Program-made: the position numbers and the translations under genes
In this document: positions 47,312-63,098 of the stretch, piece after piece
Numbering within the stretch: position 1 is the stretch's first letter
How the letters are laid out: each line of letters opens with the position of its first letter
Notes under the pieces: generated by a model
Told to the model about the DNA's origin: nothing
Database searches by the model: none
The model's input: only the letters and a program-made list of their open reading frames with translations
Assembly: GCA_009746045.1 (NCBI GenBank)
Contig: RPFO01001021.1
Location: 1 to 64,000, forward strand
DNA from: Mesostigma viride
Taxonomy: Eukaryota; Streptophyta; Mesostigmatophyceae; Mesostigmatales; Mesostigmataceae
Length of the DNA stretch: 64,000 bases
Reading direction: 5' to 3'

Positions 47312-50300
47312 CAGTGATGGGTCATACGCGATACGCGTCGTACGCGGCCCCAGGTGTATGTATAATGTATAATACGCGGTGTATAATGTATTATACGCTA
47401 ATCGTACGCTAACTGTTGAAAACCCCTTTTTTGGCATGGTTTTGAGGGGTTTTCAACATTCTGAGCAACCAAGCATGGTCTGCTGGTGTTTTTGCCATAC
47501 CTTTTGGCTATACATGACATATATAGCATGACCTTGGCATTGTCATCACTACCTAGAAATACAAGCATAGTTTCTAACGGTCTAACTTGATAGTTTCTCT
47601 TCAAAATCGAGACAACATGCAACTCAGTATCAATACCAGTACGTATCAATTCACAACTCACTGGAAAGGATAATAAATTTGTAGAACTCAAGATATCAAT
47701 GCACTCTATACATTGAAGCCGGGCAGAGAACTGTCTTCCAAATATAGTACTTAAAGAGAGCTTGGCCGACTGCCAAGCTGCCAAATATAGAAGTGATAAG
47801 AACATTGTGCCATCTGAAAATAAGACATGCTGAAAATAAGACATGGATCTTTCCTACTCGTGGTAGGCCACCATCATTAATTCCAGCTACATCAAGCAAG
47901 GACACGTATAGTCGTATACAGGCTACACATGGCTGAAAGCCTGAAATGCAGGGCAGCAGGCTACCAATGTGCACTACATGCTATCATGCATATGCAACCT
48001 GCCCCTCAAAGCTACAGTTCGACCTGAAAACTGAACAATGTCATGTGGCGGTAGGGTGCCCAAATGGCAGCAGCCTGCACGGCAATTGGCCAAAATCACA
48101 ATGTTCATCACGCTTCCCCCCGAGCGAGGCCCCGACAAGCAGCTGCAATAACCGTCACCACAGGTCAGGGCATGGGCTCATTTACTCCTCATCATCCTCA
48201 AACACCTTGATCTTGTTCAGGGCACGCAGGTTGTGGCAGACATAGACCATGCGGTTTAGGGTCTCATCAGTCATCCTGTTGCGCCTGAGGGACTTGATCC
48301 ACCCAGCCGTGCTGTTCACACGCTCCACGGCTGAATTGGATACTGGCTGGGCCAGCACCTTGACAGCCACACGCTGCAGCTCAGGGACACCTCCCCCCCA
48401 GGTAAGCCACCACTGGTAGGGCTCGACAATGAAAACCCCCGGCTTGCCCTCGACTTCCACGTTGCACAACTGGGCTTGCCTCCTGGCATCATCAGAGTCA
48501 AAGTCTCCCACCTGGTTGAAGTACTGATCCAACTGCAGCATGGCGAGGTCTGCCACAGGCCCAGGGCCATGCACCTTCTTGCAGCATTCGCGAAAGCCCT
48601 TCATGACCTCTCCATTGGACTGTTGATTGTGCCCTTTCCAGAAGGACGGGTCGAGCACGTAGCCCGCCCCGTGGATGATGGAGTACATGTAGTCCCACCG
48701 TTTGCGGACCGCTACAGCCAGCCTTGCCTTCACGGTGGGGGGGAGTGACAAATCCTTGCCCCCCACGAACTCGTTGAGCTCAAACATGCGGTGGTAGACC
48801 TTGCCCGTGCCCGGTCTGTCGCTGTCAAACAGCTTGAGCACCTCGTTCAGGGGCTTGAACAGCTCCACCAGCATCTTGACCCTGGGGAAGAAGGTGGACT
48901 CCTTGATGATGCCAGCCACCTTGTCGAATGTGATAGTACCACGATCCCCTTTGTTGGACGCGGCAGCCAGCTGGTCGTTCTCGAATGTCACCATGAGGTT
49001 TGCCTTGAGGTCATGCACGCTCTCCGCTGAAAGAAATCTGGCAATGATGACAAGTGACAAACATATGGCACATCCCAGTGTGGCAGTGTCCCACATGTGT
49101 GGTTACCAGGAACATGTTATAACCATTGCACCGTAAAGCCAAGACAAGGTATTCGATTATCGGGTACGTAATAATGGCAGGTGATACGAATGAGGGAAAC
49201 ATTATTCTCTACCTTGTACCAAACCGGGTCTCCGCGTGCTTCTTCAGGCACTTTGGCTTGGCAGTGCCGTCGTCCGCCCTCACACGCATCATTGAAGCAG
49301 TTCACCTTCTCATGGCTGAGCACGTACGTAGGTGACCACCGTGTCCACCTTGTCAAGCGCGTCCGCGATGATTGACTCCTTGTACATGTCCTCCATGAGC
49401 CGAGGTCGATGCAGTGCGCGGCACACTTGGAGGTGATGATGTGGGGAAAGTGAGCCACCACGAGCTCCTTCATCTTCTCCATGGAGTTCGTGGTGTCAGA
49501 AATCAGCTGCACCACGTTCTCCGGGCCCACCTCGCGAAGGCGGTCACACAGCAGGCTAGCCATGTACTCGGAGGTCTTTTTCTCGCCAGTGGCGTTGTCC
49601 AACCCCACGAAGTGCACAAAATCAGGCAGGTGGAACACATTCATGATGAGTGACTGTCCAGAGCAGTCCTTCCACCCATCAACACCAAATGTGCCTCCCG
49701 TCCTTTCAGCCAGCTCCAGGCGCTTGCTCACGTCCTCCTCCACCTTAGCAGCCATGCACGCGGGGTGCATCGCGTGTCTGCATTGTGCGCCGGGACGGCG
49801 GAATGTATCCCAGCTGGCTGCACATGCCCCCCCTGCTGATCTTGGTGAGAGCAGCCCGGAATACTGGGTTGCCGATGACAATTGACATGAAAGGGCACGC
49901 CAGCGCAAATGAATGCCTTGCACAGCTCCTCGTCCAGCTGCTCTTTGCTGAGCCCATAAGCTGCGGGCAAATTACCGTCGGTGGATTTGCTCTTTGATGA
50001 TCCGCTTGGCCCAGCCGCCCCAGCAGCGCGCCCCGAGTCGGTGTTGCTGGCATCAGTGGCATGAACGGACTGCCAGTCCAAGCCGTCGGTTTCTACAACG
50101 TCTGGAAGCAAGATGCGTTTAAACGCCGCCCGCACATCAGCCTGCTTCTTGGCGTCACTAACTAGTCGCCTTCCGCTTCTTGGCAGTGCTATCCTTCTCC
50201 GCCTGCTCAATCAGCATCTTGTAACGGAGTACCGGCGGTGGCTTCTTGCAAGGGCACACTTTTGCGTCCTTTGCGTACGAGCCGCCCAGGATATGGCACC

Positions 50301-56189: not shown

Positions 56190-57414
56190 CATGCCCTCAC
56201 CATTAAATTATAACATGCCTCCGTTGGGAGATCATGTAGCACATATTCCATGATGGATGGGGTGGAGGAAGCCGCGTACTCGAACTATCCTAACTCTAAG
56301 CTATATAGTCTAGAAAATCCTAACTACACTACTCATCAAAACGCCGCCTCCGCTTGGGGGGAGGGGGCTTGCCCACAGGGTCGGGCGTGTGCGCCTTGAC
56401 AATCCTCTTCCACCGCGTCTTGTCCTGCATGGCAGTCCAAAGACGGGAGATGAGAGTGGATGCGGTGCTCAAACTGGGCTGGGACCACGAGGTCGTCCAG
56501 CAACATCTGGATGTAGTTCGTGACAGGTTTCCTTACCCTTTTGGGAATGCCCTCGGGGCCGGGCCAGGTCAGAATGTGGCGCCCTGGCTGGCCAAGCCGC
56601 TGGGGGCCGGCCAGACCAAGGGCGGTGTCGACCTGGCTGGTGCGAGCAAGGTGTCCTACAAATGCTATCCTACGCTGCCTAATCTCGTCCGAAATACGAG
56701 GCATGCCATGATACAAAGACTCTGATGACGGACGCTCGGAAAACCCTACGTTAAGGACCTGTCGGAGCATCCTGTAAACCGTGCCGTCTAGCCTAGCTGC
56801 CAGTTTGGGTGGGACTGTCCACGCCTCGGCGCCATACGTGAGCACCGTGAGGACGAGGACCTTGAAGAGCATGCGCTTGCGGTGCTCACCCAGGCCCTTC
56901 GAGCGCCAGTAGGTGTTGAGCGAACGGAGCTTGGCCCAGGCAAGGCCGATGCGGGTGCCTCCACATCGTCGGCAGTGTCAGGAAGCCAACTCCCCAACAG
57001 CTTGAAGCGGTCGCGGAACGGGACCTCCGTCCCGTTGAGCAGGCGCGGCAGCGGTGGTGTACTGGAGGCCCCAATCACCATCGCCTCAGTTTTGACACTA
57101 ATCTCCAACCCCACTCACCGCCCGCCTCCAGGCCCAGACAGTCCAGAGTCTGAATGTGCTCGGCCGGGCTCTCGATGAGGGTGGTGTCATCCGCATAAAT
57201 CAGGTCGGCAAGGCGGTAACCAGGTCTAACCCCGCCGGTCTCTTTCACGTTAAGGATGTCCAAGCCTGGCTCGAACCCCTTAAGAGCAGTGAAGCGCGCA
57301 CGTGCCCAGCGCATGACGTGATCCATGACAATAATGAACAGGTATGGGGACAGGACACAACCTTGCCACACCCCGTGGTGAAGGGGGATGCCCTCACCAT
57401 TGCAACACCCCATA
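56190..57414 (-). mobile_element. LINE B reference copy, 5'-truncated
   Basis: Minus strand: 57414-57075 carries GVWQGCVLSPYLFIIV and RLADLIYADDTTLI (YADD). 57114-56790 carries EISVKTEAMVIG. 56872-56336 carries LTYGAEAWTVPP, RRIAFVGHLARTSQV and a Lys/Pro-rich C-terminus. The tail is TATGTGCTACATGATCTCCC plus AACGGAG with AT-rich sequence to about 56190. Frames shift between the blocks. It is related to LINE A at protein level but clearly separate in DNA. Confidence 0.9.
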
Positions 57415-58640: not shown

Positions 58641-58754
58641 GTACAGGCATTAAATTAAATTAAATCAAATTATAACATGTCTCCGTTGGGAGATCATGTA
58701 GCACATATTCCAGGTTGGATGGGTGGTGTGGAGGAAGCCGCGTAATCGAATTAA

Positions 58755-60640
58755 GGGGACGTGGCGCGCCGAATATTTTCCGCGCCAAAAAATTCGCGGT
58801 ACCGTCCGTACGGTGTATAATGTGTGCCCGGACCGCTCAACCCTCGCGGAGGTGGCCATGGCGGCATGCCTTTATGCAATATTAATCGATATGGCACGTA
58901 AACAGCTAGAAAAAATGCTTGAATTTCGCAGAAGATTAGTTGATGACCTCATGTCATGGCGGAAAGTTTACGGTTTGCAATATCGTTAATTTCTCGAACG
59001 GCTACGGGCGCGGGGGTCCAGGATATAATTTCTCTTGCGGATCATGAAATTTAATGCAGGTTTACGGCAGCTATCGTGAGGCAACGTAGGCTCTAAAGAG
59101 CGATTATGAAGCTAACTTAATGGTGTTGTCGAGTTTGTGCCGAAGCTTCCCGGTTTCTTTTACATTTCCGGCATTCAAGGTAAGAACCTACGCAGGCCTG
59201 CGCATGTCGCCTTCGACGTATTCACGGAAGGCGCACCTTCCTTGTTCGCCTGATCAATGGATGATGTCTTTTATTGTTCGAGCTTGCGTGCCAGTTTATG
59301 CATGAAACATTTCCACGCAGGCAGGTGCAATAACGTCGGCCTTTCGCCTTTTTTTCGGGCAGTTTCCCTGCAGGAAGCGCTCCATTCCTTTCGGTTGCAT
59401 CGTCAGATTCCTAGCAATTTCGTACAATTTCGTGTAGTTTGTGGCTGGCATGCTTAAGGCGCCGAGGTCAAGTTGTTGGTAATGTGTTGACATTTGTTTT
59501 CCATAATCCTTTGGACATGAGCTTGCTCAGACGCTTTGTTATGTGCCGGATCTGACACGCCTGTTTTAGTAAAGACATCCGGCATGTGCCTAGAGGCTAA
59601 CAAGCTGGCATCAGCTTCTTAGCAAATTGCCATATTGGAAAGGAAGGTGAGAGTGGTTCTTTTGCTGGCCATACTGCATGAGTGGCATTGCATTAGATAG
59701 GTGTTTTTATTGCTTTCCTTGAGCTATAACCATTAAGACTTCCCTGCTATGTGTGCAGCAAGGCAAGCTGGATAGGATGTGAATGCATGGCAGACAGCAT
59801 GTATGATTTGCTGCCAAGTTTGCAGGCTGCAGTTGCCTCTATTGCTTGGGCAGTCTTTCTAAGGTTTTTACACGTATACTTGCTGAGTTCTTGGCATAAA
59901 TTTACATGGTAACCTTGGGCTGAGCATAGTGTATGCTCTCTTGGTGCGTGTATGCCTAGCGAAGGTGTTGCTATGCGCACGCTGGCAAGGCTGGCCATGC
60001 TGAGGGCAGGGGAGGGCAGATGAGGTGCCTAGCCTTTTCTTATGTTGTGTGATCGAGTTGGGCATGTTTTTTGGCTTCTTGGATGGAAAACATGCTGTCT
60101 AGGTGGCCTTATACACAGAAAAACCTCATTTAGCGTATGTTCAGGTTTTAGCACGCAAAACCTTATAACTTGAGCTAGACTTGTCGGAATGACCTGGGAC
60201 TTGGACCACTGCTGTCCCCCTGTTAGCCGGATTTTCGCTTGATTTTGTGGCCTTATCTGAAGTGTTTATGATATGTTTATTCCCAATGTCCGGTAAAAAA
60301 AGACCTGTTTTGCGGGGAAATTAATAACTGTTCAAGGTTTTGCCATTTCCATGATGTAAATAGCTCAGCAAGCTACACACTCAGGGAACTACAAATGGTT
60401 GATTTTTGGTTGCCAACAAATGTGTGCATTGGCTGGGGCATACCCAGCCCTAATTAGCGTCTTTTTCTATTTATAGCGCAATATTGGCGTATACTTGGGG
60501 GTAGTACCCCCAACAAGTGCATGGACAAGTCACAAGAGATGTTATTTAGTGCCCGCAATCATATTTCAGCATTGTGCAAATGAATTTCAAGTGTTATTAC
60601 CATAGTTCAATTTTTAAGGGTTTTGGGGTGCCACCTCCCC
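58755..60640. mobile_element. TTAA-flanked DNA transposon, 1,886 bp, non-autonomous
   Basis: TTAA at 58751-58754 and 60641-60644 flank inverted ends GGGGACGTGGC and (complement) GGGGAGGTGGC, 10 of 11 alike. The neighbouring LINE B copy at 60900-60925 reads ...GTAATCGAACTATCCTAACT, which supplies the uninterrupted site with the same spacing. TTAA duplication is the hallmark of piggyBac-type elements, although these ends do not start CCC. No transposase is recognised. Short ORFs (58723-58989 and 59257-59457) have no family resemblance. Confidence 0.88.
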
Positions 60641-61097
60641 TTAACCTAACTCTAAGCTATATCTAGTCTAGAAAAGCCTATCTACGCTACTCATCAAAAC
60701 GGCTCCTCCTCTTGGGGGGAGGCGGCTTGCCCACAGGGGCTGGCATGTGAGCCTTGACAATCTTCTGCCACCGCTTCTTGTCCTGCATGGCAGTCCAGAG
60801 AAGGGAGAGAGAGGGGATTAAATTAAATTAAATTAAATTATAACATGTCTCCGTTGGGAGATCATGTAGCACATATTCCAGGTTGGATGGGTGGTGTGGA
60901 GGAAGCCGCGTAATCGAACTATCCTAACTCTAAGCTATATCTATTCTAGAAAAAGCCTATCTACCCTTCTCATCGAAACGGCTCCTCCTCTTGGGGGGAG
61001 GCGGCTTGCCCACAGGGGCTGGCGTGTGCGCCTTGACAATCTTCTTCCACCGCGTCTTGTCCTGCATGGCAGTCCAAAGACGGGAGAGAGAATGGAT

Positions 61098-62393
61098 TAA
61101 TTATCAACATCACTCCGTTGGGAGTCAATGTAGCACATATCCCTGAGAAGGGGCATATGGCTTTCAATACATCCTAGGCTACTTCATGCAAGGGTGGGAA
61201 TGTAAGCAACACTTGCTCTAGGTGCCGCAAGGGCACCTGCACCGCCATGCTGTCTCAGGTTCAACCCAGCGAAGGGGATCCTGGCACGGGGGAGGAAGAT
61301 CATCATGGCTATACAAGGGCTAGGGCATGGCTTCTCGACAGAGAGCATCTCTCTGCATGGCATATCATGGCTAAATTCTTAATGCAACATCCATGGGGGT
61401 CCCATTATAGGCATGGCTTGGCTAAATTCTAAAGGCAACATCCATGGGGGCCATTGTGGGCGCACATGCGCGTGGGCCACATGCTAGGCTAAGCCTTACT
61501 AATCTACACTACTGGTATATATATTCCTAGTCTGAGGTGGCAGGAGGGGGCTGCCAGGGCTTGTGGTCAACGTGGATGACCGCCCCCCTCCAGTATACCG
61601 GCTTCCCCCTTGCGCTCTGCCGGAGCTGAAGGTAGGTCGGCCATAGCTCGCGTCGCCGCTGTTGCTGGGCCAGGGTCAAGTCGTCGTCCAGCGTGAAGCG
61701 AGTCTCCGAGAGCTTCTTGCGGCATTTAAGGAACGCCAGCTTGTCCGCCATGTACTTAAAGGTGAGGAGCACGGGTGCCGGGCCAGCCTTCCCCCGCGCG
61801 CGGGGGAGGCGGACAGCCGACATGTCCAGCTCACCAGTGAGTAACATGGGGGCAAGAATGGCGCGCTTAAATGCCTCAAGAAGGCTCGTGGAGGTCTCAC
61901 CTGCCTGCTGGTCGAAGTGCTTGACGATGACATTGTGGCTGCGCCGGCCGGGCGATGTCGGCTTCCTCGCGAAGGTCGAGGGCTTGTTGCTTGAGTTGTG
62001 CCGAGATGGTGGAGGTGGTGGAGGTGGTGTGTTAAGCAAGTCCGCCCAGGTGGAGGGAGCATCGCCGGCCGGGCCAGCAGAAGCCGGCTGGGCGGCGATG
62101 TCCTTCACCGCCTGGGCGGTGAGGCCGGCGGTGTCATGCAAGCTCTCAAGGGCGTTGGCGGTGGCTTGAAGGCGTTGGTCGAGGTCGAGGAGCTGGGCTT
62201 TGATGTCGGCAGTGGAGGCGGAAATGGCAGTGGAGGTGGAGGCGGCGGCGGTGGAAATGTGAGGAAGTTCAGCAGCCAGCGTGCCACCCATTGCTGCGAC
62301 GTCAGCAGCAAGGGGGGTCACGTGCTGCTGAAAGGCTTCCGTGAGGATGGAATGGAGGGTGGAGGCGGAGATGGATGGAGCCCAGATCTCGCC
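61098..62393 (-). mobile_element. ORF1-only non-LTR element, nested in LINE B copy 2
   Basis: Flanked by the perfect 12-bp duplication GAGAGAATGGAT (61086-61097 and 62394-62405). Read 5' to 3' on the minus strand it is an ORF1-like reading frame from the 5' end to 61527, then a roughly 430-bp 3' UTR, then the CAAC hairpin (61113-61124), then an AT tail. No reverse transcriptase is present. The last 40 bp or so match the LINE B 3' end, so the LINE B machinery probably moved it. Confidence 0.9.
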
Positions 62394-62516
62394 GAGAGAA
62401 TGGATGCGGTACTCAAACTGGGCTGGGACCACTAGGTCGTCCAGCAACATCTGGGTATAGGTCATGGCATGTTTCCCTACCTTTTTAGGAATGTTCTTGG
62501 GGCCAGGCCAGGTCAA
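61527..62516 (-). CDS. ORF1-like protein, fused in frame to LINE B ORF2 tail
   Basis: A 329-codon frame. Residues 1-41 are LINE B ORF2 sequence (QMLLDDLVVPAQFEYRIHS); from GEIWAPSIS on, the inserted element is read. The rest has a coiled-coil-like stretch (DIKAQLLDLDQRLQATANAL), a Pro run, and a C-terminal half like L1-type ORF1 RNA-binding domains: NVIVKHFD, PVLLTFKYMADKLAFLKCRK, FTLDDDLTLAQQQRR and LWPTYLQLRQSARGKPVYWR. Such proteins bind element RNA. The native start is probably the internal Met of MGGTLAAELP or lies in a missing 5' part. The fusion is a product of insertion, and expression is unproven. Confidence 0.75.
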   Translation of the reverse strand: MTWPGPKNIPKKVGKHAMTYTQMLLDDLVVPAQFEYRIHSLGEIWAPSISASTLHSILTEAFQQHVTPLAADVAAMGGTLAAELPHISTAAASTSTAISASTADIKAQLLDLDQRLQATANALESLHDTAGLTAQAVKDIAAQPASAGPAGDAPSTWADLLNTPPPPPPPSRHNSSNKPSTFARKPTSPGRRSHNVIVKHFDQQAGETSTSLLEAFKRAILAPMLLTGELDMSAVRLPRARGKAGPAPVLLTFKYMADKLAFLKCRKKLSETRFTLDDDLTLAQQQRRRELWPTYLQLRQSARGKPVYWRGAVIHVDHKPWQPPPATSD

Positions 62517-63098
62517 AATATGCCGCCCTGGCTGGCCGAGCCGCTGGGGACCGGCCAGACCAAGGGCGGTGTCGACCTGGCTGGTGCGAGCAAGATGTCC
62601 TACAAATGCTATCCTGCGCTGCCTAATCTAATCCGAAATACGAGGCATACCGTGATACAAAGACTCTAAGGACCTACGCTGAGAAAACCCTACATTCAGG
62701 ACCTGTCGGAGCATCCGGGTTACCGTGCCGTCTAGCTTGGCTGCCAGTGTTGCCGTGAGTGTCCATGCCTCGGCGCCATACGTGAGCACCGTGAGGACGA
62801 GGACCTTGAAGAGCATGCGCTTGCGGCACCTGCTCGTCCAGGCCAGAGAGGGGATGCGGTACTCAAACTGGGCTGGGACCACTAGGTCGTCCAGCAACAT
62901 CTGGGTATAGGTCATGGCATGTTGCCCTACCCTTTTAGGAATGTTCTTGGGGCCAGGCCAGGTCAAAATATGCCGCCCTGGTTGGCCGAGCCGCTGGGGA
63001 CTGGCCAGACCAAGGGCGGTGTCGACCTGGCTGGTGCGAGCAAGATGTCCTACAAATGCTATCCTACGCTGCCTAATCTCATCCGAAATACGAGGCAT

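Follow-up and report, generated by a model that had tools for sequence, protein, structure and literature searches.

Some LINEs are near-exclusively site-specific, among them Tx1L in Tx1D of Xenopus and R1 and R2 in rDNA. In green algae, passages of two papers describe Zepp and Zepp-like LINEs as inserting into existing copies and forming arrays rich in 3' ends; Zepp, which belongs to the L1 group, forms one cluster per chromosome (PMC3446292, PMC8226300). For RTE-clade LINEs (Bov-B and legume RTE), passages of a further paper describe target duplications that start with A and have a T run some ten nucleotides upstream (PMC13295347). Here we describe a position in a LINE family of Mesostigma viride, LINE B, which is a recurrent hot spot for insertion; a nest of LINEs in the window (the whole stretch of 64,000 nucleotides analysed, on contig C2200) is one case of its use. 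A literature search of partial coverage returned no description of the LINE B site, absence from print not being claimed, and the repeat passages of the Mesostigma viride genome papers do not discuss LINE target sites.

The LINE B site resembles neither the Zepp nor the R1/R2/Tx1 style. Its use is a preference common to several tail types (A, B, C, O and S, named by tail sequence) and is concentrated by the abundance of LINE B. As with Tx1L, R1 and R2, LINEs repeatedly enter one position of another repeated sequence, but the site takes only a small share of insertions, namely 1 of 70 sampled C-type junctions (L074) and 0 of 29 sampled LINE B junctions. With the Zepp-like LINEs, as the cited passages present them, it shares nested insertion into own copies, 21 of the 50 inserts read having B-type tails. 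Unlike those elements, the tail is not poly(A), few of the sampled insertions are nested at the site, and the sites are spread rather than gathered in one compact cluster; the largest contig (C1) holds at least 41 exact intact sites, lying between 86 kb and 14.2 Mb among the matches listed. An earlier note on this DNA had proposed that self-targeting would confine copies to one another. Confinement is not supported by the two junction counts or by the spread of the listed intact sites along contig C1.

The nest was checked at the base level in the window, and its LINE parts all lie on the minus strand. LINE B copy 1 starts with its 3' end, which has a (TAAAT)-type tail (58651..58750), runs up to a TTAA-bounded insert of 1894 bp (58751..60644, strand not assigned) and continues as far as the insertion site (60645..60818). 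The TTAA-bounded insert has similar inverted ends (GGGGACGTGGC.../GGGGAGGTGGC...) and looks like a TTAA-type DNA transposon, with no long open reading frame seen in it. LINE B copy 2 lies within copy 1 with its tail from 60819, and its 3' part extends to its own site (60819..61097), where the ORF1-only element, of tail type O, is inserted with its tail from 61098 (61098..62393). Copy 2 picks up again at 62406 with its truncated 5' side (62406..62844), and copy 1 at 62856, where its 5' side is truncated at GAGGCAT (62856..63098). Copy 2 is surrounded by the 11-bp duplication AGAGAGGGGAT (60808..60818 and 62845..62855) and the ORF1-only element by the 12-bp duplication GAGAGAATGGAT (61086..61097 and 62394..62405). 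The first bases on resumption are GCGGTACTCAAACTGG in both copies, and the right copy of each duplication, together with the following GCGGTACTCAAA, forms a complete site again. The two insertions, their duplications and their single homologous position in LINE B had been claimed in the earlier note, and all are borne out to the base. Another LINE B copy of the window has the same site uninterrupted (GAGTGGAT|GCGGTGCTCAAACTGG, 56452..56477, minus strand, with GCGG at 56462). The outer flanks of copy 1 share only a 6-bp match, AGGCAT, and are without a clear duplication. A 366-aa open frame (61527-62627, minus strand) spans the insertion joint, passing from LINE B ORF2 to the ORF1-only element.

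The genome (440 Mb, 2243 contigs) was searched for the site, allowing up to two mismatches. The interrupted-site pattern was the LINE B left half directly followed by TAA, which was taken as the start of a LINE tail. It was found at 249 places genome-wide, compared to 0 matches for a reversed-pattern control, and the intact site was found at 2587 places. This corresponds to an occupancy of 8.8%, or about 9%, a figure which is only approximate because the patterns are of unequal length and a tandem self-insert can be counted under both. Of the 249 interrupted places 100 were listed, 50 of which were read, and LINE-like tails of five types were present at 49. Recognised tails accounted for 44 places (B 21, O 9, C 9, S 3 and A 2); the remaining six comprised five tail variants and one unclear place (L053), which was rejected as it did not read as a clear insertion. 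Tail types C and O have a large part of the 3' region in common and may be subfamilies.

For 30 loci about 1.5 kb of sequence past the site was available, and LINE B was seen to resume in 19 but not within reach in 11. Ordinary 5' joints were found in 10 of the 19 resolved loci, with target duplications of 8-13 bp around inserts of 67-1209 bp that belong to types A, B, C, O and S. Distinct places are represented by 29 of the 30 loci, the exception being the pair L036 and L047, which are identical over 1200 bp of flank. A coincidence of two insertions is ruled out by the 249 interrupted places, and a single fixed chimera by the differing tail types, insert lengths and duplications. With the target duplication, a complete site is present again at the insert's right edge. 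In L074 an ORF1-type 5' end is followed by GAGAGTGGAT and then by a C-type tail, an order of parts that suggests a second insertion where the site had been rebuilt.

Nine of the 12 resolved B-type inserts (9 of 19 among all resolved loci) end at the homologous position of LINE B itself (L031, L032, L033, L039, L041, L042, L050, L056 and L059). Target and insert overlap in these self-inserts by 19-60 or more identical bases, with one mismatch in L050. This may result from homology-guided joining of the 5' end or from trimming by recombination between nested direct repeats. L006 has a LINE B copy inside an ORF1-type element; the 5' truncation of this copy falls exactly at the hotspot position (GGAT|GC), and there is no LINE B target there.

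A target rule was built from insertions elsewhere, with the hotspot removed. Among 56 unique two-ended targets 45 were usable (B 27, A 8, C 6, S 3 and O 1), with a median duplication of 11 bp; the 11 dropped were three hotspot flanks, six targets not ending in AT and two running into tail-like repeats. An earlier target table (48 sites; site first of 3324, about 300-fold) had been discarded because its filter could admit a hotspot flank (L034). The earlier note had called for such a tabulation of insertion sites, and the 45 targets yield a weak rule, AT|G with A/T 11-12 bases beyond the nick. The AT column is partly by construction, since a target was accepted only if it ended in AT; 47 of 70 C-type junctions begin ..AT|TAAT. 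G is present at +1 in 24 of the 45 targets, T at +5 in 19 and R at +6 in 33. A/T is preferred at +11 (36/45) and +12 (40/45), and the preference for the letter A alone is weaker (27/45 and 23/45, respectively). The LINE B site, GGAT|GCGGTRCTCAAACTGG with AAA at +10 to +12, fits this rule. In the element sense it reads CAGTTTGAGTACCGC|ATCCACTCTC, in the C-terminal part of ORF2, and a T run is located about one helical turn from C|A.

The likeness to RTE-clade LINEs was judged by domains, tail type and target signature. LINE B combines an APE-type endonuclease with a reverse transcriptase in one element, the tails are short microsatellite-like repeats, (TAAAT) and (TTAA), and not poly(A), and the A/T preference at +11 and +12 corresponds to a T run that precedes the start of the duplication by about one helical turn, as in the passages of PMC13295347. 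Unlike the targets in those passages, the base before A is most often C in the element sense (the G at +1), not T, and a self-borne hotspot is not found in them. The ORF2 of one LINE B copy (L016+L152) contains the APE-type endonuclease domain PF03372 (E 3.4e-6) and the reverse transcriptase domain RVT_1 (E 1.6e-23), in two different frames. Among solved structures the endonuclease is closest to that of L1, but the match is weak (E 0.0055). A LINE reverse transcriptase fragment from the window is up to 100% identical, over part of its length, to predicted proteins labelled Mesvir1; its top match (99% over 57%) is labelled Lingulodinium polyedra, which is perhaps contamination.

Under the rule, the LINE B site ranks 2 of the 3324 positions of one LINE B copy. 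The right half alone also ranks 2 and the left half alone 65. The motif given in the earlier note, GAGAGARKGGAT, thus stands as the left half of the site, but it is the right half that carries most of the rule match. Across the window, 120 of 127,908 strand positions score as high as the site. Rules made from half of the data (300 draws) placed the site first in 114 draws, in the top three in 209, and 56th at worst. The enrichment predicted at the site is about 156-fold over the window mean, and that observed is very roughly 1600-fold, taken from seven tail junctions in the window of which two are at the hotspot itself, leaving a gap of about tenfold. The top-scoring LINE B position, 2851 (GGCCTTGATAT|AGTC, in a reverse transcriptase motif), is uninterrupted in 17 of 17 matching rows (16 places). 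About 1.5 interrupted rows would be expected at 9% occupancy, which makes this weak counter-evidence from too few rows to decide. At the other AT|G positions (n=32) a same-strand LINE tail occurs in 3 of 1032 copy-sites (1547 twice, 2267 once), a figure that is somewhat lowered as about 30 LINE B copies were picked for an intact 3' part. Position 1544, which is AT|C and not AT|G, has three insertions among the LINE B loci sampled. Taken together, the enrichment gap, position 2851, the unstable half-data ranks and position 1544 indicate that the rule is underpowered or that there is extra recognition.

Extra recognition would be expected of special self-targeting, in which LINE B copies have evolved into a haven for LINE insertions, and the rough tenfold excess over the prediction, as well as the uninterrupted state of position 2851 despite its higher score, point in that direction. 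We regard this as rather unlikely, since 69 of 70 C-type and 29 of 29 LINE B sampled insertions lie elsewhere and the general rule already fits the site. The earlier note had the endonuclease aimed at the element's own coding region, and this is not upheld, as a weak general rule fits the site and tails other than those of LINE B use it too. It is also conceivable that a few founding insertions were multiplied, with chimeric elements or duplicated loci mimicking many events. The pair L036 and L047 would agree with this, and the homologously joined LINE B 3' ends that make up 9 of the 19 resolved inserts may reflect recombination or tandem duplication; the ten ordinary inserts, however, are unlike one another in tail type, in their own length and in that of the duplication, and all but one of the 30 loci are distinct, which leaves few founders a poor prospect.

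A role for the structure or chromatin of the GGGAGAGAGAG tract, making the site fragile in place of an endonuclease motif, is suggested by the position of this tract directly left of the nick and by a second repeated target, GGGATGGAATGGAT|GGTGTAAGCTAT (L012, L038 and L064), which is likewise purine-rich. The earlier table of 48 sites, however, is without a clear purine bias left of the nick, no clear support emerged for the polypurine-tract idea, and most of the rule match sits in the right half; we consider this fragility very improbable. Assembly is error-prone at near-identical repeats, and an artefact of this kind could in principle imitate a nest. Mis-joins would not yield duplications of 8-13 bp around differing inserts at one base position, and these clean duplications leave an artefact practically ruled out.

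A recurrent site, several tail types and ordinary duplications make a sequence-preferring endonuclease the best reading. The earlier note had suggested such an enzyme, and the 249 interrupted and 2587 intact sites support it. The position is probably a preferred landing site for LINEs with related tails (A, B, C, O and S), reflecting a preference and not a device for confinement. The endonuclease would contact the T run (TTT) and make its cut about one helical turn from it, on the other strand. This would free a ..GGAT-3' end, which could then pair with the A/U-rich tail of the RNA and prime reverse transcription. Where the incoming RNA is that of LINE B itself, the cDNA may join by homology at the same position; later recombination would give the same structure, and tandem LINE B 3' ends would be left either way. 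The heavy use of the site probably reflects its fit to the enzyme and the abundance of LINE B. A more speculative proposal is that several LINE tail types with a common insertion chemistry use this ORF2 landing site far beyond the prediction of their general rule, and that the site, rebuilt by each insertion, makes a transposon's coding sequence a renewable sink for other transposons and is maybe kept for that reason; this appears distinctly unlikely.

The LINE B site provides a base-precise target of an APE-type LINE endonuclease in some 2800 repeats of one genome, about 9% of them occupied, and makes it possible to measure how the insertion rate relates to the target sequence, here a T run one helical turn from the cut. 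It also indicates that true site specificity is not needed for LINEs to nest at one position, a merely preferential endonuclease being enough. The LINE B self-inserts offer a view of 5' joining when target and cDNA are homologous.

Other repeated targets were seen among the sampled loci. The second repeated target mentioned above (GGATGGAATGGAT|GGTRWAAGCTAT) has received B, A and C tails and apparently lies in an S-type 3' region. A third, CCACACYCCAGATGAT|GCCTAGCTTTAT (L078 and L090), has O and C tails; an ambiguous AT makes the exact junction different in L078. Elsewhere in the window, pieces of a hAT-type transposase (Dimer_Tnp_hAT, DUF659) are located at 48182-49971 on the minus strand, and a long satellite-like array with units of about 43-50 bp occupies positions 1-2716.
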